Notes under the pieces: model-generated
Database searches by the model: none
What the model saw: only the letters and a program-made list of their open reading frames with translations
What the model was told of the DNA's origin: nothing
Shown here: positions 11,226 to 21,185 of the stretch, one piece after another
How positions within the stretch are numbered: position 1 is the first letter of the stretch
Layout of the letters: each line of letters opens with the position of its first letter
Made by a program: the position numbers and the translations under genes
Origin: a virus
Virus record (IMG/VR): IMGVR_UViG_3300027870_000021
Coordinates: 1 to 21,185 of that record
DNA: 21,185 bases
Reading direction: 5' to 3' (one strand)

Positions 11226-12965
11226 CTATGATACCACAGGGGGCTGGTCAGGTCGCGGCGGAGGCGGGTTGCCTGCGTCGGGTCCTGGCTGATCGGCCAG
11301 GGCAGCCTGCTTGGCTGCGGCCTGGCGATCTGCGATCTGTCCCGGAGTCTCGTAGTCCGCCGGGACTTCGAGGCCCAGGTACTTGAAGGCCTCACGGGGG
11401 TCGCCCGTGGCCTTCTGGAGCTTCTCGGCGCCGTCGAAGTCGTTCTTGACGATGCGCTTGACTTCCTCGGCTGCGTCTTCGATGGGCAACCCTGCATTGA
11501 TGAGCATCTGGATCGCCGTCTCGAGGCTGATGCTGCGGGGGCGCGTCTGGAGCATCTTGCTCACGGCGTTGATCGTCGTGTCGATGTCGGACGGGAGGAA
11601 GCTGCCAGGCGTGAACGTTGGCCAGTTGAAGTCGTCGGCCTCCTCATCGAACTTGGGTAGCCCCGGGAAGCCGGCGGCCTGGTGCATCCGGATCATGAAC
11701 TTGGTGATGAGGGGGTACTTCTCCTCACGCACCAGGCGCATCTTGTAAATCATCGCCTGGAGCGGAGCGAAGCCGAGGGCGAAGGCCAGACCGGACGGAA
11801 CCTCCGACGGCTTGATGCGACCGATCGCGGACTCGGGCAGGTGGCTGTTGACGCTGAGTCGCTGGAGCAGCTGGTCGAGGTACTTGAGCAAGGCGTCCAG
11901 CGCCTTGCTGGTGTCGAGGCTCGACAGCTTGCCACCGAAGACGGTGCCCGGGCCGTACGAGTCTACCGTCTGCCCGTCTGCCGTGGCAAGCGAGCCTTCA
12001 CTCGCCAGCGGCGGGAAGCCGGCGATGGATGCGCTCTTCGCGAGGTCGGAGTCGGTGGCTTGGATCTCGTCGATGATCTGGAGGATCGTGGCCAGGCTCG
12101 ACTGCCCGAAGTGCTCATCGTCGTCCACGCTGGTGTTCGGGATGTGGACGACAGGGATGAAGTCGAGCTTGGTGTCGATGTCATGGAGCTCCTCACCCTT
12201 CGCGTTCTTGTACCAGTGGGCCAACTGCTTCGGCAGTGTGTCGTAGTCGACGCCCAGGGGCAGGTCGTCCCGCAACCACTCGCCATCCGAGTAGTAGCAC
12301 TTGCCATCTCGGAGGTCCCAGGTCTTGCGGCGGATCCAGATGGTGGTGTCGATGCTCGAGGTCGGGTTCGGTCGCAGCCGCTCGAACTCCCACGCGATGT
12401 GGACCCGCGTCGGGAACTCGAGGTCGTCTGCACCGTCGAGCACCGGGAAGTAGAACCCGGGGTCGTACACCTTCATGTCGATGCGCTTCTTCACCGTGTC
12501 GGTGAAGAGAGCGATGACGCCGTCGCCCTTGAGGATGGCGTGGTCTTCGGCGTTGAACAGCTTGCGGATGGCGCGGGCCTTCTTGGCCCACTTCTGCGCG
12601 AACTTCTCGAGCGCCTCGTTGCCATCGCAGGTGACGGTGACGTCGTTGCCCAGCAACGCGGCCAGCGTCGTGTCGACGATGACACGCGAGTCGCCCAGCT
12701 CCCGTCGGTCGTCCCGCAGGTCGTGGAGCTCCTCGACGGTGATGTCGAGATCGCCGTTCATGAAGAACCGGCTCACGTTGCGGTCGTACGAGTCCAGGAG
12801 GATGTACGCGTTCAGCCGCCGACGTGCATCACCGACCCAGGTCGCGATGAGGTCGGAGTTGGTGGGCAGCGCTGGCGTCTTGAAGTCCAGCGCCGACCAC
12901 GTGTCAAGCGTCAGCTGGTCGTCCACATCGGAAGACTCTAGCTTACGCCGGGCAACGTGCCACAC
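11226..12965 (-). CDS. Portal protein
   Basis: The 579-aa protein has the expected size and features of a siphophage portal: N-terminal SDLIATWVGDARRRLNAYILLDSYDRNVSRFF, a central helical and strand core (HIPNTSVDDDEHFGQSSLATILQIIDEIQATDSDLAKSA), a segment VPSGLAFALGFAPLQAMIYKMRLVREEKYPL typical of portal stem and wing helices, and a Pro-rich disordered tail. Portals form the dodecameric DNA gate and bind terminase. The start is uncertain. GTG at 12965 overlaps the esterase gene end by 23 bp. GTG at 12926, 13 codons later, lies 8 nt past a repeated TAGAGT element. Neither has a good Shine-Dalgarno. The stop and identity are firm. Confidence 0.9.
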   Translation of the reverse strand: MWHVARRKLESSDVDDQLTLDTWSALDFKTPALPTNSDLIATWVGDARRRLNAYILLDSYDRNVSRFFMNGDLDITVEELHDLRDDRRELGDSRVIVDTTLAALLGNDVTVTCDGNEALEKFAQKWAKKARAIRKLFNAEDHAILKGDGVIALFTDTVKKRIDMKVYDPGFYFPVLDGADDLEFPTRVHIAWEFERLRPNPTSSIDTTIWIRRKTWDLRDGKCYYSDGEWLRDDLPLGVDYDTLPKQLAHWYKNAKGEELHDIDTKLDFIPVVHIPNTSVDDDEHFGQSSLATILQIIDEIQATDSDLAKSASIAGFPPLASEGSLATADGQTVDSYGPGTVFGGKLSSLDTSKALDALLKYLDQLLQRLSVNSHLPESAIGRIKPSEVPSGLAFALGFAPLQAMIYKMRLVREEKYPLITKFMIRMHQAAGFPGLPKFDEEADDFNWPTFTPGSFLPSDIDTTINAVSKMLQTRPRSISLETAIQMLINAGLPIEDAAEEVKRIVKNDFDGAEKLQKATGDPREAFKYLGLEVPADYETPGQIADRQAAAKQAALADQPGPDAGNPPPPRPDQPPVVS

Positions 12966-13608
12966 CGTCCCACATCATCTTCGCCCAGGCGTTGGCCGCA
13001 GCCGGGTTCGCCAGGTCACCTGAGAGCTTGGCATCGCTCGCCAGGTGGATCCCATCGGGACCGATGATGGAAGGGTTCGCGGAGATGATCGCCTGCCAGT
13101 CGACGACGATCGTGCGTGGTCGCTGCGCAGCCTTGGCCTTCATGGCCTCGTGGGCCTGGTGCATGGAGTACTGCGTGAGGAGGTCCGGGGTGTTGGGGCC
13201 ACGGACGATGTAGCCCGGGAGGATCACGACGACGCAAGCGCTGGAGCTCGGCGTGAAGAGGAGCCGGTTGAAGTCGGCCTCGTCGTCGGGGCCCCAGCCG
13301 CTGGAGTACGCACCAGCGTTGTTCGTCCCGAGCGCGATGACCATGATCGCAGGCCGGCCGTCAGCGGCCCGCTGGGTGGCGGCGGGCTGCGCATCGGCGA
13401 AGACACGGCCGGCCCACTCGTCGTGGAGCACGTCGGCGTTGGCTGGTCGGCCCTGCGCGTCGTACTCGGCGCTGCGGCCCCAGTACGCCTGGGTGCTGAT
13501 GGAGTCGCCCACGATGTCGATGGTGTTCGGCTCGGGGGTCGGCACGCAGCCGATGCAGCCGAGGATGGCGACGAGCGCGGTTGCTGCGATGGCGATGAGT
13601 CGGTTCAT
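12943..13608 (-). CDS. SGNH/GDSL-type esterase lipoprotein
   Basis: The 221-aa protein has the SGNH hydrolase blocks: GDSIS with Ser36 (residues 34-38), GTNN (94-97) with the block III Asn, and DGIH (185-188) with catalytic Asp185 and His188. Block II is not obvious. An N-terminal signal of a basic start, a hydrophobic core and a lipobox-like ILGC at 15-18 suggests a secreted lipoprotein. Such enzymes cut ester or acetyl groups from carbohydrates or lipids, so a role in cell wall or surface modification is plausible; substrate unknown. The ATG at 13608 has GAAGG upstream. The longer open frame upstream is not protein-like. It lies between an acidic unknown gene and the portal gene, an odd place for an enzyme. 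Confidence 0.85.
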   Translation of the reverse strand: MNRLIAIAATALVAILGCIGCVPTPEPNTIDIVGDSISTQAYWGRSAEYDAQGRPANADVLHDEWAGRVFADAQPAATQRAADGRPAIMVIALGTNNAGAYSSGWGPDDEADFNRLLFTPSSSACVVVILPGYIVRGPNTPDLLTQYSMHQAHEAMKAKAAQRPRTIVVDWQAIISANPSIIGPDGIHLASDAKLSGDLANPAAANAWAKMMWDGVARCPA

Positions 13609-13645
13609 GTCATGTCCTTCCGTCTGTGGTTTAGACCTGACCGTA

Positions 13646-15897: not shown

Positions 15898-16211
15898 GGT
15901 GCGCTTCCCTTCACGATCGCAGCAGAGCCGGCGATCAGACGTTCGATGGTGCCATCGTCGTCGGTGACGACGAGGTCGTACTGGGCAGCCCCGGGGACGA
16001 GCACCTGGAGGCTCGAGCGTGGGACGTTCACGATGATCCACGAGCCGGCCTGCTCGATGCCCTCTCCGAGGTTGGCACTGATGGTCGTGGAACCCTGCGT
16101 GATCCCGAAGCTGGCGGCGCTCAGGGTGACTGGCACGTTGTCTCGGGTCCACATGACGGCGATCCGCCACGGAGCGTTCAGTGCGATCTCGGTGCTGTGC
16201 TGGACGGTCAT
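15894..16211 (-). CDS. Small beta-sandwich protein, LtfC/BppU-like
   Basis: This 105-aa protein starts at ATG 16211 (MTVQHSTEIALNAPWRIAVMW), which overlaps the terminase stop as ATGA. The longer frame upstream overlaps terminase and is discarded. The pattern of WRI, VPVTLSAASFGITQG, EGIEQAGSWIIVNVP and QYDLVVTDDDGTIERLIAGSAAIV fits the small beta-sandwich domain seen in LtfC/p132/Gp6-type and BppU N-terminal proteins, which occur in phage fibres and attachment proteins. It sits directly before the fibre-like gene, so I infer it is a fibre or attachment partner. The fold call is by eye. Confidence 0.7.
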   Translation of the reverse strand: MTVQHSTEIALNAPWRIAVMWTRDNVPVTLSAASFGITQGSTTISANLGEGIEQAGSWIIVNVPRSSLQVLVPGAAQYDLVVTDDDGTIERLIAGSAAIVKGSAP

Positions 16212-17773
16212 CGACGACCCTTCCCTCGGCGGTCCCTCATCTTGGAGACGGTACCACTGACGATGCTGGGGACCATGAGCTTCGTGACCGCCCAGACCAG
16301 CGCATCCAGCCGGTCGGGTGAGGGCTCGTTGCCCTCGGGGTCCCACGTGGTCATCTCTTCCTCGAGGTCGGGCAGCGCTCGTCCGAGGTGGTGGACCTTG
16401 CCCTGCTGGTAGAGGGCAGCGACCGGCTCGGCCCGCAGCACCTTCCCCTTAGAAGCCCGCACGGGGTCGATGGGGAGGCCATCCTGAATCGCGCGGAGAT
16501 TCGCTATCACGAGATCTCCGCCCTGGTTCACCTCGGGGATGATCCAGTTGGCTTGCCAGTCGTTGAACGCCTTGATGACGGTCTTGCCCCACTCCAGCGG
16601 CGTGCCCTTCATCGTCCGATCGTCGATGACGAGAGCGTGGGCGCCTTGGGCGTCGTGGCAGAACGGGCAGGGGCTGACCGTCTTGGCGACGACGACGATC
16701 CCGGTGGCGTCGCTGCCCTCGTTCGACGTGACGGCGGGGTCCACGCCGATGACGATCTGGTTGACGACGTTGTAGAGCTCGGGGACGAGGTACTCCTGGA
16801 GCCGGGCGTCGTTGATGTCCTTCATGGAGAAGAGGGCGCCCTCGACATCGTCGAGGATCTCCGCGTTCAACTCCTGCCGGCCGAGGCGGGTCCCCTCGTA
16901 GGCGTTCTTCAGCTCTTGCAGCGCAGCACGTGCCAGGTTCTTGGCGTTCTCGTACATGGAGCCGGTGGTGATGATCACCCCGCCCGATGGCTCGGCGGAT
17001 CGCTTGACGAGGTTGCGGATGAACTTCAGCGGCTTGGGCGTGGTGGTGATGATCACCTGCGGGTTCTCTCCGAGCCGCAGGCCGAACATCATCATGTCCC
17101 ATGTGTCTTGCAGGTACTCCCAGGCGGCCAGCTCGTCTGCCCAGGCGCGGTGGTGCTGCGGACCACGTAGGCGCTCGGGTCGCTCCGCAGTGAAGATCTT
17201 CATGCGGGACCCGTTCGTCAGCACCAGCTCGCCGATGCTTCGGTTCCAGTCCTCGAGGAGGCTGGAGGGGAGGATGCCGAGGATGCCGGACTCGCCCTCC
17301 ACCATGGTGTCACGACCATCAGAGAAGGTCGGGGCGACGAGGGCGGTCCGGCTGCCGGGATGCTCGAGGGCGTACTTGACGACGTCCTCCGCGCCGGTGC
17401 GGGTCTTGCCCCAGCCACGGCCGGCGAGGATCATCCAGATCAGCCAGTCCCAGTGGCCGCGCTCGGCCAGCCAGTGCGCACGAATCGGGGCGATGGCGTC
17501 TTCGTCTGGGTGGACCTCGAGATCCGGGTGCTGCTCGAGGTACTCGAGGAGGGACGGGTCGTCCTCAGGCAGGGTCTTGGGGAAGAGGAGCTCGACTTCG
17601 TGAAGAAGCGCTTCGCACTCCTTCACCTCGTTGGTGCACAGGTGGTGTCGGCCAGGCGTCAGCTGCTTGGGGCGGGCCTTCAGACGCCAGCGCAGCCGGA
17701 CCTTCGCAGGGATCGACATCTGGGCGAGGGCCTCCCGGCTGAGGGGAGGGAGGGGCTTAGGTCCGGACGACAT
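16208..17773 (-). CDS. Terminase large subunit
   Basis: The 521-aa protein has the packaging ATPase signature: Walker A AGRGWGKT at 117-124, Walker B RAWADE ending D213-E214, and the coupling motif TTTPKP at 243-248. The RNase H-type nuclease follows with VIGVDPAV (Asp345), IIPEVNQGGD (about 411-420) and SPDRLDALVW (Asp487, Asp490). It cuts concatemers and drives DNA into the prohead through the portal. An odd point is CPFCHDAQGAH at 369-379, inside the nuclease, where C369, C372, H373 and H379 could bind a metal. The ATG at 17773 overlaps the previous stop as TGATG. The stop overlaps the next ATG. Confidence 0.96.
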   Translation of the reverse strand: MSSGPKPLPPLSREALAQMSIPAKVRLRWRLKARPKQLTPGRHHLCTNEVKECEALLHEVELLFPKTLPEDDPSLLEYLEQHPDLEVHPDEDAIAPIRAHWLAERGHWDWLIWMILAGRGWGKTRTGAEDVVKYALEHPGSRTALVAPTFSDGRDTMVEGESGILGILPSSLLEDWNRSIGELVLTNGSRMKIFTAERPERLRGPQHHRAWADELAAWEYLQDTWDMMMFGLRLGENPQVIITTTPKPLKFIRNLVKRSAEPSGGVIITTGSMYENAKNLARAALQELKNAYEGTRLGRQELNAEILDDVEGALFSMKDINDARLQEYLVPELYNVVNQIVIGVDPAVTSNEGSDATGIVVVAKTVSPCPFCHDAQGAHALVIDDRTMKGTPLEWGKTVIKAFNDWQANWIIPEVNQGGDLVIANLRAIQDGLPIDPVRASKGKVLRAEPVAALYQQGKVHHLGRALPDLEEEMTTWDPEGNEPSPDRLDALVWAVTKLMVPSIVSGTVSKMRDRRGKGRR

Positions 17774-18172: not shown

Positions 18173-18203
18173 GTGGGGGCCGCCGCATCGCGACGACCCC
18201 CAC
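18173..18203 (-). terminator. Terminator after the lipoprotein gene
   Basis: A 14-bp stem (18173-18186 with 18190-18203) with two G-U pairs and a 3-nt loop lies 20 bp past the stop of the lipoprotein gene. No U-tract follows, which is common in actinobacteria. It closes the seven-gene array and separates it from the packaging operon. The 75 bp from here to the 11-bp repeats hold nothing else I can support. Confidence 0.8.
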
Positions 18204-18222
18204 TACGTGCTAGATGCTGATC

Positions 18223-18513
18223 TCAGACGTGGTACGTCTTGGCGCCGACGGCGCAGGCGCGCGTGGTGTAGATGATGCTGTCCTCCTCTTGGGCGTAGCC
18301 CAGGACTCCCGCGTCGCTGCCGTCTGCGTCCTGCGCGATCCACTTGCCCGGGTTGCCCCCGACGTAGTCGCTCCCTGCGGGGATCGTCTTGTACGGGACG
18401 ACGGTGCAGCTCTGCATGGTGTACGGCTGGCAGGCGCTCAGCGCGCCGGCCAGTACGAGCGCCCCCGCGAGCAGGAGCGCCTTGATCTTGTTGGTGGCGT
18501 GGTTGGTTTCCAT
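18223..18513 (-). CDS. Small lipoprotein, leaderless gene 7 of the array
   Basis: The 96-aa product starts METNHATNKIK, then a hydrophobic core (ALLLAGALVLAGA) and a clean lipobox, L25-S26-A27-C28. The mature part is about 69 aa with three more Cys and no recognised fold (SDYVGGNPGKWIAQDADGSDAG). The first eight residues are the array's shared leader, so here the leader doubles as the n-region of a signal peptide. Phage lipoproteins of this size often act in superinfection exclusion; that is a possibility only. Its own promoter lies just upstream with a 6-nt gap to the ATG, and its own hairpin follows. Confidence 0.85.
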   Translation of the reverse strand: METNHATNKIKALLLAGALVLAGALSACQPYTMQSCTVVPYKTIPAGSDYVGGNPGKWIAQDADGSDAGVLGYAQEEDSIIYTTRACAVGAKTYHV

Positions 18514-18564
18514 GAACTAATCGTACACTATTCCCGTGTAGATGTCAACAAATTCTTACGAAAG
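18514..18564 (-). promoter_or_regulatory. Leaderless promoter of the lipoprotein gene
   Basis: On the minus strand the upstream block AAGAATTTG is followed by -35 TTGACA (18543-18548), a 17-bp spacer and -10 TACGAT (18520-18525). TAGTTC then leads directly to ATG. Transcription would start at or next to the A of the ATG. The 39 bp from 18491 to 18529 are identical to 18833-18871 at the next gene. Confidence 0.85.
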
Positions 18565-18581
18565 ATTTCACGCATTAGAAA

Positions 18582-18601
18582 GGCCGCCCCTCAGGGCGGC
18601 C
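18582..18601 (-). terminator. Terminator after leaderless gene 6
   Basis: An 8-bp perfect stem (GGCCGCCC / GGGCGGCC) with a 4-nt loop is followed on the minus strand by TTTCT. It lies 20 bp after the stop at 18622. This is the most classical intrinsic terminator of the array. Confidence 0.88.
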
Positions 18602-18621
18602 GATCTAGCGGGTGCGTTATC

Positions 18622-18855
18622 TCAACGCATCTGGTCGTCTTCCATCTGGTCGTTGTACGCCTGGAGCTCGGCCTCGGTGGGGAGGCTGTGGCGACGGCAG
18701 GGGTGCGCGAGGTGGTCAGCGTCGCAGCCCGCATCGTGGCACGCCTGGATGAGGATCAGCCCGAGGGCCAACTTCGTGAAACGCTCGGGTCGGGCGACAC
18801 CCGCAGCACGGGCCTTGGCGACGAGTTCGGACTTGGTGGCGTGGTTGGTTTCCAT
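18622..18855 (-). CDS. Small Cys/His-rich protein, leaderless gene 6 of the array
   Basis: The 77-aa product starts METNHATKSELVAKARAAGV. After the shared leader, SELVAKARAAGVARPERFTKLAL resembles a short SAP-like helix-turn-helix segment. C39, H40, C44, H48, H51, C53 and H56 cluster in CHDAGCDADHLAHPCRRH and could bind zinc. The C-terminus is acidic and Gln/Met-rich. A nucleic-acid or host-regulator-binding role is plausible but unproven. It has its own promoter and terminator. Confidence 0.82.
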   Translation of the reverse strand: METNHATKSELVAKARAAGVARPERFTKLALGLILIQACHDAGCDADHLAHPCRRHSLPTEAELQAYNDQMEDDQMR

Positions 18856-18905
18856 GAACTAATCGTACACTGGATCCTCCCTAGTGTCAACAAGTTCTTA
18901 GGAAA
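18856..18905 (-). promoter_or_regulatory. Leaderless promoter of gene 6
   Basis: The upstream block TAAGAACTTG is followed by -35 TTGACA (18885-18890), a 17-bp spacer, -10 TACGAT (18862-18867), then TAGTTC and the ATG at 18855. The design is the same as at 18514. Confidence 0.85.
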
Positions 18906-18929
18906 TTACCCGCCCTGCGCGAGGGGGCT

Positions 18930-18962
18930 CTAGAAGGGGCCTTCGCCAGGGGCCCCCTCTAG
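18930..18962 (-). terminator. Terminator after leaderless gene 5
   Basis: A 12-bp stem (18930-18941 with 18951-18962, one G-U pair) with a 9-nt loop begins 8 bp past the stop at 18971. The segment 18921-18928 (GAGGGGGC) can also pair with 18952-18959 (GCCCCCTC), an alternative fold of the same site. Confidence 0.8.
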
Positions 18963-18970
18963 CAGCGGCT

Positions 18971-19261
18971 CTAGTCAGTGATCCGCTTGGCGATCATCTC
19001 GAGCATGGCCAGCGCGTTCTTGGCGGCCTCCAGCTTGGCGACGTCCATGTCGATCGCCGAACCGCGTGCCTGTACGACACCGCATGCGTTCGGCGTGCGG
19101 CCGCGATCCATGTCTTCCAGCGAGCGGGCCAGCTCTCGCGACAAGCTCTCCATGTTGGACTTGAGCGACTTGGTGTGCCGCTCCACGTCGTGTCGTGCGG
19201 ACGAGATCGCGAACTCGAGCTCGGTGCCGTTGGTCTTGATTGCGTTGGTGGTTGTTTCCAT
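18971..19261 (-). CDS. Helical coiled-coil protein, leaderless gene 5 of the array
   Basis: The 96-aa product starts METTTNAIKTNG and is predicted almost wholly helical: a long charged helix from about residue 14 to 52 (ELEFAISSARHDVERHTKSLKSNMESLSRELARSLEDM), a break with one Cys, and a second helix (DVAKLEAAKNALAMLEMIAKRI). This looks like a helical hairpin that could dimerise. No family is recognised. It has its own promoter and terminator. Confidence 0.82.
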   Translation of the reverse strand: METTTNAIKTNGTELEFAISSARHDVERHTKSLKSNMESLSRELARSLEDMDRGRTPNACGVVQARGSAIDMDVAKLEAAKNALAMLEMIAKRITD

Positions 19262-19312
19262 GAACTAATCGTACACTGATTGTGCCCGCATGTCAACAAG
19301 TTCTTGGGAATT
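19262..19312 (-). promoter_or_regulatory. Leaderless promoter of gene 5
   Basis: The upstream block CAAGAACTTG is followed by -35 TTGACA (19291-19296), a 17-bp spacer, -10 TACGAT (19268-19273), then TAGTTC and the ATG at 19261. Confidence 0.85.
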
Positions 19313-19323
19313 CTTTCGGGAGA

Positions 19324-19363
19324 CCGCTGAGAGGCCCCCTCCGAAGAGGGGGCCCTCGAGCGG
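19324..19363 (-). terminator. Terminator after gene 4 and its small basic ORF
   Basis: A 9-bp GC stem (19333-19341 with 19346-19354) has a TTCG loop in the minus-strand RNA, extended by a second 5-bp stem (19324-19328 with 19359-19363). It begins directly after the stop of the 26-codon ORF at 19364, which places that ORF inside the transcript. Confidence 0.82.
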
Positions 19364-19444
19364 CTATCGCCTCGGCTTGCGCTTCCCGGGGTTGTACGCG
19401 GGACTCTGCCGGGGTGCCTTGGGCTTCTGCGGCCGGCGGCTCAC
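19364..19444 (-). CDS. Possible 26-aa basic peptide coupled to gene 4
   Basis: GTG at 19444 overlaps the stop of the preceding gene as GTGA and opens 26 codons ending at TAG 19364, right before the terminator hairpin. The peptide is MSRRPQKPKAPRQSPAYN plus PGKRKPRR; ten of its 26 residues are Arg or Lys and six are Pro. The GTGA junction, used several times in this genome for coupled genes, and the fit between stop and terminator argue for translation. The high GC of the region could also produce such an ORF by chance. If real, it could bind nucleic acid or an acidic partner. Confidence 0.42.
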   Translation of the reverse strand: MSRRPQKPKAPRQSPAYNPGKRKPRR

Positions 19445-19812
19445 CGGAGCGCGTCCTTCACCCATCGGCGCTGCGCGTCGAACACCGATCGCCGGAGATC
19501 GTTCGCACGACCGGACCAGGTGTCGTCAGCACCGGAGTCCAGCAGCGTCTCTCGAGCGTACTCAGCGACCTCTCGTCGGCACTCATCTTCGGTGCGATCT
19601 TCGACGTCGTACTGGATGCACATGACCACCTGCCACTCGAGAGCGATGATGGCCTCTTGCTGCGCGATGGACTGCACGAGATCGTGCAGCGACGTGGCGC
19701 GGTCTTGCGACGTGGTCGCATCGACGAGCCGCTTGCGGATCGTGTCCATCATGGCCTCCGCTGCGGTGTGCCGCTTGGTGGTCGGTTGGTTCGTGTCGTG
19801 GTTGGTTTCCAT
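19441..19812 (-). CDS. Helical acidic protein, leaderless gene 4 of the array
   Basis: The 123-aa product, the longest of the array, starts METNHDTNQPTTKRHTAAEAMMDTI. The rest is a series of amphipathic helices (SLHDLVQSIAQQEAIIALEWQVVMCIQYDVED, then EDECRREVAEYARETLL) and ends with an Arg/Trp-rich helix (RANDLRRSVFDAQRRWVKDALR). No family is recognised. It has its own promoter, and the terminator lies beyond the small basic ORF. Confidence 0.82.
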   Translation of the reverse strand: METNHDTNQPTTKRHTAAEAMMDTIRKRLVDATTSQDRATSLHDLVQSIAQQEAIIALEWQVVMCIQYDVEDRTEDECRREVAEYARETLLDSGADDTWSGRANDLRRSVFDAQRRWVKDALR

Positions 19813-19869
19813 GAACTAATCGTACACCATTGTGCGGTCGAAGTCAACCATTTCTTACAAATTCTTTCG
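19813..19869 (-). promoter_or_regulatory. Leaderless promoter of gene 4
   Basis: The upstream block GTAAGAAATGG is followed by -35 TTGACT (19842-19847), a 17-bp spacer, -10 TACGAT (19819-19824), then TAGTTC and the ATG at 19812. It is the only member with TTGACT. An inverted repeat (TTTCGT / ACGAAA, 19865-19880) and a copy of the 22-bp repeat lie directly upstream, so it may be controlled differently. Confidence 0.83.
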
Positions 19870-19870
19870 T

Positions 19871-19892
19871 TCCCACGAAACTGCCCTATTTC
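19871..19892 (-). repeat. 22-bp repeat, copy 1
   Basis: The minus strand reads GAAATAGGGCAGT, four variable or partly conserved bases (TTCGT-type) and GGGA. Copies 2 and 3 lie at 20903-20924 and 20999-21020. This copy is upstream of the gene 4 promoter and shares about 35 bp, including a flanking AAATTCTT, with copy 2. Confidence 0.75.
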
Positions 19893-19955
19893 ATCATCGA
19901 CGGGAAATGCCTGTGCCCCGTGCTGCCACCATACTGCACCGCACGCACAAGACGA

Positions 19956-19979
19956 AGAGCGGGCCTTTCGGCCCGCTCT
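19956..19979 (-). terminator. Terminator after leaderless gene 3
   Basis: A perfect 10-bp stem (AGAGCGGGCC / GGCCCGCTCT) has a GAAA tetraloop in the minus-strand RNA and is followed by TCGTCTT. It lies 26 bp past the stop at 20006. The stretch 19893-19955 between it and the 22-bp repeat shows nothing I can support. Confidence 0.87.
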
Positions 19980-20005
19980 CTCGAGACGACGGGATGAACC
20001 CGCGG

Positions 20006-20266
20006 CTACCGCTTCACGTAGAGCACGTACTGCTGGTGCCGGTTCTCCCGCCACACCCTCGGGTCGGCGTCGGCAGCGTCGATGCCCGCGTACGCCCGGG
20101 CGCCATCCCAGTCGTAGTCGAAGTACTTGCGGACGCCCTCCGCGTTCCAGGCCTCTACGGCCCCGAGCATGACCTCTTGGATCGCTCGACGGTGGGCGCG
20201 CGTGGGCTTCATCTTGCGGGCGCCCTTGAACGGGTGGACGGGTCGGGGCTTGGTGGTTGGTTCCAT
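20006..20266 (-). CDS. Small basic protein, leaderless gene 3 of the array
   Basis: The 86-aa product starts MEPTTKPRPVHPFKGARKM, a variant of the array leader with one base triplet changed. A basic N-terminal third (KMKPTRAHRRAIQEVMLGAVEAW) is followed by aromatic segments (KYFDYDWDGARAYAG) and a basic end (RENRHQQYVLYVKR). No family is recognised. It is driven by a promoter whose -35 lies inside the preceding gene's hairpin. Confidence 0.8.
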   Translation of the reverse strand: MEPTTKPRPVHPFKGARKMKPTRAHRRAIQEVMLGAVEAWNAEGVRKYFDYDWDGARAYAGIDAADADPRVWRENRHQQYVLYVKR

Positions 20267-20315
20267 GAATACATCCTACCAAATCGATGGGGGATGTCAA
20301 CAAATTCTTGCGAAA
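20267..20315 (-). promoter_or_regulatory. Leaderless promoter of gene 3
   Basis: The upstream block CAAGAATTTG is followed by -35 TTGACA (20295-20300), a 16-bp spacer, -10 TAGGAT (20273-20278), then GTATTC and the ATG at 20266. The spacer and -10 differ from the other units, so it may be weaker. The -35 sits in the 3' arm of the hairpin at 20289-20329. Confidence 0.8.
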
Positions 20316-20329
20316 TGTTGACATCCCCC
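20289..20329 (-). terminator. Hairpin that ends gene 2 and contains the next -35
   Basis: Perfect 14-bp arms (GGGGGATGTCAACA at 20289-20302 and its complement at 20316-20329) flank a 13-nt loop. It starts 5 bp past the stop at 20335. Both arms contain TTGACA or its complement, and the downstream arm supplies the -35 of the gene 3 promoter. It is not followed by a U-tract. Confidence 0.8.
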
Positions 20330-20334
20330 GAGCG

Positions 20335-20541
20335 TCAGTCGTGCGGAAGGTAGATGAACTCGGGATCGAGTTGCTTGATGCGCTGGACAGCGGCCTCGAG
20401 CAGCTCGAACAGATCTTCTGCGTCGATCGCCTCGAACTCAGGCGCTTCTTGCAACGCGGTGTGGACCGAAGCGCCGAGCTGGGCGCGGTGGACCAGGTAG
20501 TCGAGCTGCGAGTTGGTGGTTGGGAATCGGTTGGTTTCCAT
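20335..20541 (-). CDS. Small acidic protein, leaderless gene 2 of the array
   Basis: The 68-aa product starts METNRFPTTNSQLDYLVHRAQL. It is acidic and mostly helical (HTALQEAPEFEAIDAEDLFELLEAAVQRIKQL) and ends DPEFIYLPHD. Small acidic phage proteins often bind host regulators or mimic DNA, but no family is recognised here. It has its own promoter and a composite terminator. Confidence 0.8.
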   Translation of the reverse strand: METNRFPTTNSQLDYLVHRAQLGASVHTALQEAPEFEAIDAEDLFELLEAAVQRIKQLDPEFIYLPHD

Positions 20542-20590
20542 GAACTAATTGTACCCGACTACTTGGCGGATGTCAACAAATTCTTGTGAA
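20542..20590 (-). promoter_or_regulatory. Leaderless promoter of gene 2
   Basis: The upstream block CAAGAATTTG is followed by -35 TTGACA (20571-20576), a 17-bp spacer, -10 TACAAT (20548-20553), then TAGTTC and the ATG at 20541. Its boxes are the closest to sigma70 consensus in the array, so it may be the strongest promoter. The -35 lies in the downstream arm of the hairpin at 20564-20607. Confidence 0.85.
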
Positions 20591-20607
20591 TTTGTTGGCA
20601 CCCGCCA
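20564..20607 (-). terminator. Hairpin that ends gene 1 and contains the next -35
   Basis: 20-nt arms (20564-20583 and 20588-20607) with a 4-nt loop give 18 standard pairs, one G-U and one mismatch in the minus-strand RNA. It begins 7 bp past the stop at 20615. The downstream arm contains GAATTTGTTGACA, the upstream block and -35 of the next promoter. This is the same design as at 20289 but with different outer bases. Confidence 0.8.
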
Positions 20608-20614
20608 GCAGCCG

Positions 20615-20833
20615 CTAGATCGCGGCGAGTCGGTACTGCCACCCGTTCATGCCGTTGGCCAGTACGAAACCTTCGAGGGCACCAGAGGCCGTCTCGTAGC
20701 CACCGGACCAACCGAGGAGTTCGTTGCCGCCGTCCCAGATCCACGTTCCGTCCGGCTGACGTTCGACGGTTGCGGTCAGCGGCAGCAGATCGGCGGTCGT
20801 GATCTTGATGGTGGTTTCGGTGGTTGCTTCCAT
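20615..20833 (-). CDS. Small beta-rich protein, leaderless gene 1 of the array
   Basis: The 72-aa product starts MEATTETTIKITTADLLPLTATV. It is beta-rich, with two or three strands (TATVERQPDGTWIWDGG) followed by a helix (ETASGALEGFVLANGM) and a last strand (WQYRLAAI), a small alpha/beta fold. No family is recognised. Its leader is the most diverged of the seven, but the promoter geometry is identical. Confidence 0.8.
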   Translation of the reverse strand: MEATTETTIKITTADLLPLTATVERQPDGTWIWDGGNELLGWSGGYETASGALEGFVLANGMNGWQYRLAAI

Positions 20834-20884
20834 GACTACATCTTATCGTCTTTCGTCTGATCTGTCAACCAATTCTTACGAAAT
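20834..20884 (-). promoter_or_regulatory. Leaderless promoter of gene 1
   Basis: The upstream block GTAAGAATTGG is followed by -35 TTGACA (20863-20868), a 17-bp spacer, -10 TAAGAT (20840-20845), then GTAGTC and the ATG at 20833. An extra copy of the upstream block (GAAATTCTTGTG on the plus strand, 20889-20900) lies just beyond. Confidence 0.83.
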
Positions 20885-20902
20885 ACGAGAAATTCTTGTG
20901 TT

Positions 20903-20924
20903 TCCCGCTAGACTGCCCTATTTC
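20903..20924 (-). repeat. 22-bp repeat, copy 2
   Basis: The minus strand reads GAAATAGGGCAGT, then CTAGC and GGGA. The flanking AAATTCTT and TTTCCC match copy 1. It lies upstream of the gene 1 promoter, as copy 1 does for gene 4. Confidence 0.75.
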
Positions 20925-20998
20925 ACTTGTCAAGATGATTTGCTGCTTCGCCGCTACGATCTACCAGCCGCACGTGCGAGAGAGTGTTTGAGCGGTGC

Positions 20999-21020
20999 TC
21001 CCTACAAACTGCCCTATCTC
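20999..21020 (-). repeat. 22-bp repeat, copy 3
   Basis: The minus strand reads GAGATAGGGCAGT, then TTGTA and GGGA. It has one change in the 13-bp core compared with copies 1 and 2 and no AAATTCTT flank. It lies in the gene-free region. Confidence 0.7.
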
Positions 21021-21126
21021 GTCTTCTGTTCTTTGCGGACCCGCTTTAGGTAGACACCCTACCTACGTGTTTCTGGCGGAGGACTACAAGACGAAATAGA
21101 CCGGTTCGACCGCACAATAGCCCGTG

Positions 21127-21166
21127 ACGATAAGACAAGTAGTTGCACGTGCAACAAGTTCGTAAG
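21127..21166 (-). promoter_or_regulatory. Diverged promoter with palindrome over the -35
   Basis: The minus strand has GAACTTGTTG, as in the array promoters, then -35-like TTGCAC (21149-21154), a 16-bp spacer and -10-like TATCGT (21127-21132). The 14-bp palindrome GTTGCACGTGCAAC covers the -35. No start codon lies 6 nt after the -10, so any transcript would have a leader or be noncoding. Confidence 0.45.
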
Positions 21167-21185
21167 CGGCGAAATGCCCGCCGTC

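Follow-up and report, generated by a model that had tools for sequence, protein, structure and literature searches.

Seven consecutive small genes of a phage contig share a promoter header predicted to give leaderless mRNAs

How are seven consecutive small genes expressed when a promoter appears to be pressed directly against the start codon of each of them? The question is raised by IMGVR_UViG_3300027870_000021, a 21,185-bp IMG/VR virus fragment from a phage with 65% GC, which over its whole length is hereafter called the window. All seven genes of the array lie on the minus strand near the contig end, just upstream of the terminase, and these small open reading frames (ORFs) begin with ATGs at 20833, 20541, 20266, 19812, 19261, 18855 and 18513. 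Their GC content at third codon positions is 0.77-0.93, as expected for real genes in such a phage. Judging from the sequence, we consider it probable that the seven are accessory, moron-like genes that are singly transcribed by the host housekeeping RNA polymerase as leaderless mRNAs.

The promoter geometry is nearly invariant. Six units have TTGACA as their -35 box and one (19847) has TTGACT. The spacer measures 17 bp except at 20300, where it is 16 bp, and the -10 box reads TACGAT four times and TACAAT, TAGGAT or TAAGAT (TANNAT) in the rest. From the -10 box to the ATG the gap is exactly 6 nt in every unit, and the sequence between boxes and ATG is TAGTTC, GTATTC or GTAGTC. The pattern TTGAC[AT]-N16/17-TANNNT-N6-ATG matches the minus strand seven times and the plus strand not at all, and is absent from 300 dinucleotide shuffles. 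The initial annotation had described this promoter and its fixed distance to the ATG, and all seven sites are present where it placed them, on a strand (minus) that it did not state. The headers of the seven units are as follows.

20813..20887, minus strand: header of unit 1 (-54 to +20); -35 at 20868-20863, -10 at 20845-20840, ATG at 20833
20521..20595, minus strand: header of unit 2; -35 at 20576-20571, -10 at 20553-20548, ATG at 20541
20246..20319, minus strand: header of unit 3; -35 at 20300-20295, 16-bp spacer, -10 at 20278-20273, ATG at 20266
19792..19866, minus strand: header of unit 4; -35 (TTGACT) at 19847-19842, -10 at 19824-19819, ATG at 19812
19241..19315, minus strand: header of unit 5; -35 at 19296-19291, -10 at 19273-19268, ATG at 19261
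18835..18909, minus strand: header of unit 6; -35 at 18890-18885, -10 at 18867-18862, ATG at 18855
18493..18567, minus strand: header of unit 7; -35 at 18548-18543, -10 at 18525-18520, ATG at 18513

Transcription is expected to start at the A of each ATG, because only then do the boxes sit at the canonical -35 and -10 positions. Shine-Dalgarno (SD) sites upstream of the array genes are weak or absent, with at most a chance match of 3-4 nt within promoter sequence, which should stay untranscribed; several structural and other genes of the window carry AGGAG-type SD sites. Every unit also has an in-frame stop inside the -10 box or the discriminator, a TAG two codons before the ATG in five units and a TAA or TAG four codons ahead of it in the remaining two. 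Any in-frame upstream translation would thus be halted just before the ATG, and no upstream in-frame start is usable. The same promoter-ATG spacing is kept at homologues of gene 3 in two Gordonia phages: the -10 box lies exactly 6 nt from the matching ATG in both Phendrix gp13 (TAGGAT-GAATGC-ATG) and Vine gp33 (TATGGT-TTTCTC-ATG), despite differences in the surrounding DNA. The leaderless design put forward in the initial annotation is strongly supported at the sequence level by the box positions, the in-frame stops (7/7), the weak or absent SD sites and the Gordonia geometry.

The genes behind these headers have little else in common. Pairwise comparison of the seven proteins gave no similarity beyond residue 12, and no credible family was found for them in PHROGs, Pfam, NCBIfam, PADLOC or Rfam. 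The AlphaFold model of gene 3 is of low confidence, with a mean predicted local distance difference test score of 62.7. Seven mutually unrelated proteins behind one header would be consistent with the earlier idea that such units can be gained, lost or shuffled.

20615..20833, minus strand: gene 1, 72 aa, no family
20335..20541, minus strand: gene 2, 68 aa, no family
20006..20266, minus strand: gene 3, 86 aa; homologous to Phendrix gp13 and Vine gp33 (both Gordonia phages) and to proteins of two IMG/VR contigs
19441..19812, minus strand: gene 4, 123 aa, no family
19364..19444, minus strand: possible basic ORF of 26 aa that overlaps the gene 4 stop (GTGA); its stop codon touches a hairpin
18971..19261, minus strand: gene 5, 96 aa, no family; weak coiled-coil-like Pfam matches below cut-off
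18622..18855, minus strand: gene 6, 77 aa, no family
18223..18513, minus strand: gene 7, 96 aa, signal peptide with lipobox LSAC (read from the translation), putative lipoprotein

The conserved block runs from about -54 to +20 and is longer than the initial annotation described. Counting from the A of the ATG as 0, the seven headers carry 1.16 bits of information over -60..-36, 1.9 in the -35 box and 0.58 in the spacer; the values are 1.59 for -12..-1 and 1.29 for +3..+20 and reach background beyond. AAGAA at -44..-40 and GTTGAC are invariant in all seven headers, as is ATGGAA, and we take the position of AAGAA to be that of a proximal UP-element subsite. Near its start, at +8, +9 or +20 (A of ATG = 1), each array gene carries one copy of CAACCAC, and these seven copies, which lie in two reading frames and encode NH or TT, are the only ones on the minus strand of the window. 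The A+C fraction of codons 2-8 is 0.86 in the array genes compared with 0.60 in 16 other window ORFs (Mann-Whitney p 1e-4), and the minimum free energy (MFE) of the first 40 nt is -1.9 compared with -8.0 kcal/mol (Mann-Whitney p 5e-4), the 16 ORFs having been hand-picked from the ORF list, some with uncertain starts. Such an A/C-rich start would keep the 5' end unstructured or aid ribosome loading; CAACCAC itself may act in translation, as an operator or in keeping the 5' end free of structure. A further repeat, GAAATAGGGCAGTYT, occurs three times in one orientation (minus strand; 19878-19892, 20910-20924 and 21006-21020), twice upstream of unit 1 and once upstream of unit 4; none of 100 shuffles contained three matches.

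In the mechanism that we propose, each gene would stand behind its own portable header, made up of the UP-like AAGAA, the -35 box, a 17-bp spacer, the -10 box, a 6-nt discriminator, the ATG and the A/C-rich CAACCAC stretch. With the housekeeping (SigA-type) sigma factor, host RNA polymerase would initiate on the A of each ATG and give a leaderless mRNA, and host 70S ribosomes would load at the 5' AUG with no need for an SD site. The hairpin after each gene would limit read-through, so that each gene is expressed independently. Start sites, termination, timing and protein functions are all predictions here. More tentatively, and we think it somewhat unlikely, the header may be a portable start module in which the frame-independent CAACCAC in its A/C-rich stretch, together with the promoter, serves co-regulation or drives leaderless translation. 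If so, arrays of leaderless units with one gene each would give phages a recurrent means, so far undescribed, of carrying accessory or host-takeover genes that can be exchanged.

A hairpin follows within approximately 70 nt of all seven genes, with MFE values of -28.5 to -40 kcal/mol and z-scores between -3.2 and -8.9 in six of the seven. In this respect the initial annotation, which let each unit end in its own hairpin, was right; that the hairpins are terminators we infer, and U-tracts are few. A consensus terminator scan found one of the seven (after gene 6), performing at chance level overall, and at most one or two resemble classical intrinsic terminators. After genes 1 and 2 the same sequence may serve as both terminator arm and promoter.

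20556..20614, minus strand: hairpin after gene 1, -40 kcal/mol, z -8.9; the UP-like element and -35 box of unit 2 form its 3' arm
20289..20329, minus strand: hairpin after gene 2, -29.2 kcal/mol, z -4.2; the UP-like/-35 region of unit 3 forms its 3' arm
19956..19979, minus strand: terminator-like hairpin after gene 3, AGAGCGGGCC-GAAA-GGCCCGCTCT, then TTCGTCTT; T-containing tail
19324..19363, minus strand: hairpin after unit 4 with a CUUCGG loop, -36 kcal/mol, z -3.3
18921..18959, minus strand: hairpin after gene 5, z -0.9
18582..18601, minus strand: intrinsic-terminator-like hairpin after gene 6 with a T-rich tail
18173..18203, minus strand: hairpin after gene 7, GTGGGGGTCG...GGCCCCCAC

Several points weigh against singly transcribed, leaderless units. 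Most of the hairpins lack a U-tract, and the strength of the one after gene 5 does not exceed what its composition would give. Unit 4 is possibly bicistronic; the initial annotation's picture of an array made only of monocistronic units holds for the promoters, one for each of the seven, and is less certain for unit 4 with its possible two ORFs. In Mycobacterium smegmatis, a randomised 6-nt block after a leaderless ATG revealed no preference (PMC4633059), and the translational role of CAACCAC is weakened because of this result. More distant gene 3 homologues (IMG/VR contigs, L159 and L160) have SD-like leaders, which indicates that leaderlessness belongs to the phage and not to the gene itself. 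Moreover, the full extent of the array and any regulators are out of view, given that the 21-kb fragment ends approximately 350 bp upstream of gene 1.

The conservation of the header exceeds what a sigma factor needs, and the block could instead be chiefly a regulatory operator array, in which all seven promoters are switched together by a phage protein, repressor or activator, that binds at AAGAANTNGTTGAC, in the region of TTCATGGAA/CAACCAC or at both, and the leaderless geometry is secondary. The invariance of AAGAA, the odd palindrome TTCATGGAA (exact in six of seven units) and the three extra GAAATAGGGCAGTYT repeats in and upstream of the array all fit such a switch. A precedent exists in Cluster A mycobacteriophages, whose asymmetric stoperator sites have been proposed to take part in termination and silencing (as PMC4351075 describes). 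Unlike stoperators, which have many dispersed copies, mostly off promoters, the upstream element with 0-1 mismatch occurs nowhere away from the seven promoters, and exact AAGAANTNGTTGAC is found in the 21 kb only at these seven. No regulator gene is visible within the fragment, and the position of AAGAA presumably matches that of a proximal UP element. On balance we find a primarily regulatory block possible but doubtful.

Descent offers another account, in which one gene start was recently duplicated in tandem and its copies captured ORFs, the headers being alike through descent or recombination and not through function. Units 6 and 7 do share 22 identical nt from the ATG onward, but recent duplication is hard to square with a spacer at background level between two conserved boxes, which calls for selection on the boxes, and with proteins that retain no residual similarity; we judge it improbable. 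The conserved internal Met19 of gene 3 could point to leadered, SD-dependent translation from internal start codons, with an ATG 6 nt after the -10 box by coincidence. However, ATGGAA is part of the conserved header in all seven units, the signal peptide of gene 7 needs the first ATG (no other ATG stands ahead of the lipobox), and the gene 3 homologues begin at the matching position, which makes internal starts very improbable.

The layout is not unique to this phage and recurs in unrelated phage contigs. IMGVR_UViG_3300006916_000083 (9000-22000) contains 8-9 consecutive small ORFs with TTGAC-N16/18-TANNNT-6 or 7 nt-ATG, although, in contrast to the window, it has 47% GC and no CAACCAC-type 5' coding motif and is not among the relatives of the window's terminase. 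Repeated GTCCCATAAGGACTTA-like segments precede several promoters of that array. In seven AT-rich contigs with many small genes (L188, L189, L217, L219, L268, L256 and L247), at least some of them T4-like by protein reading, the distance to the first ATG is exactly 6 nt in 32 of 40 cases, roughly seven of which were selected for, given that each contig was fetched for at least one such site. At the other 204 loci, selected sites aside, the distance between a strong promoter and the first ATG is mostly 24-34 nt. In Gordonia phage Phendrix the gene 3 homologue sits within a run of small genes, several with their own TGATACGAT-type promoter; some of these promoters are leaderless, and others have a short A/C-rich leader with an SD site. 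The initial annotation had called the layout non-standard, which holds only in part in view of the comparable clusters in unrelated phage contigs and the partly leaderless Phendrix run. No published description of such arrays came up in the literature searched, which takes in few subscription journals.

Relatives that carry the array, or that contain its flanks, were not found. Neither the whole window nor the array DNA matched INPHARED, and exact header patterns gave no hits in viral contigs. The nearest terminase relative (L007, 72%; 57.6-kb contig) was scanned without finding an array, and its locus ends 489 bp upstream of the terminase gene, with other sequence there. A looser header pattern yielded 68 single matches, taken as chance apart from one unrelated array, and 13 single matches in genome contigs. 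With a slightly looser pattern, 14 isolate phage genomes contained no comparable cluster, the largest count being 10, scattered over the 152 kb of phiYS40. The left arms of Arthrobacter phages SilentRX and Odyssey395 were considered as parallels and rejected, as their genes are closely packed or overlapping and no leaderless promoters were found.

Morons are among the closest known systems. Like the array genes, they are small, bear no relation to the genes next to them and have a promoter of their own, with a hairpin behind the gene; lipoproteins, of which the array has one putative member, are a common moron product. By the moron definition of an own promoter and terminator round a single gene, the array has promoters and hairpins at seven of seven genes, few U-tracts and, in unit 4, possibly two ORFs. 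Unlike morons, which are single insertions with unrelated promoters, the array, known here from DNA only, has seven genes in tandem with one uniform leaderless header. Our best reading is a row of moron-like genes that would all be expressed through one standard leaderless header.

Leaderless phage transcripts have precedents. Cluster O mycobacteriophages have three predicted leaderless SigA-type promoters (PL1, PR2 and PL2) with the first base of the start codon as +1 (PMC4351075), but these are only a few of the genome's promoters, whereas in the array every gene of a seven-gene run is involved and shares a 5' coding element. Leaderless middle and late mRNAs have been reported for Thermus phage phiYS40 (PMC3594737), which, like the array, expresses many genes from leaderless transcripts, although from sites scattered over the genome and in another host. 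In Cluster K mycobacteriophages, the Start-Associated Sequences (SAS/ESAS), repeats upstream of start codons, are thought to act in translation initiation (PMC3203893). They too are short repeats that, within a single phage, accompany the start codons of numerous unrelated genes, but they lie upstream of the start codon, whereas the array header is a promoter directly against the ATG that reaches into the coding region; the 13-bp SAS GGGATAGGAGCCC, found just upstream of starts, is absent between the array boxes and the ATG.

If transcripts confirm the predicted starts, the array would be a natural set of seven unrelated genes under one standard leaderless header. With it one could cleanly test what, apart from a 5' AUG, leaderless translation requires, and whether repeated headers aid the exchange of small genes among phages. 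That unrelated phage contigs have this geometry too points to a general layout, whose genes may be missed or given wrong starts by annotation pipelines that seek SD sites.

The array lies upstream of the packaging and structural genes, with the structural genes downstream of the terminase large subunit.

16208..17773, minus strand: terminase large subunit

The virus is presumably a tailed phage. Its host is likely to be an actinobacterium, because all 34 records that the portal-like protein matches among isolate phages belong to phages of Streptomyces or Gordonia. The approximately 300 bp upstream of unit 1 (20900-21185, minus strand) is without a clear gene and contains a perfect 14-bp palindrome, GTTGCACGTGCAAC, and a degenerate header-like site, ACGAACTTGTTGCAC-N16-TATCGT, with no ATG at +6, which is possibly a promoter for a leadered or non-coding RNA. 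The unit 4 spacer has a perfect 14-nt inverted match to the region upstream of gene 1, possibly by chance. Among the structural genes, an ORF at 12943-13620 (minus strand) is lipoprotein-like, with a GDSL/SGNH-hydrolase-like start (DIVGDSIS), by reading only.

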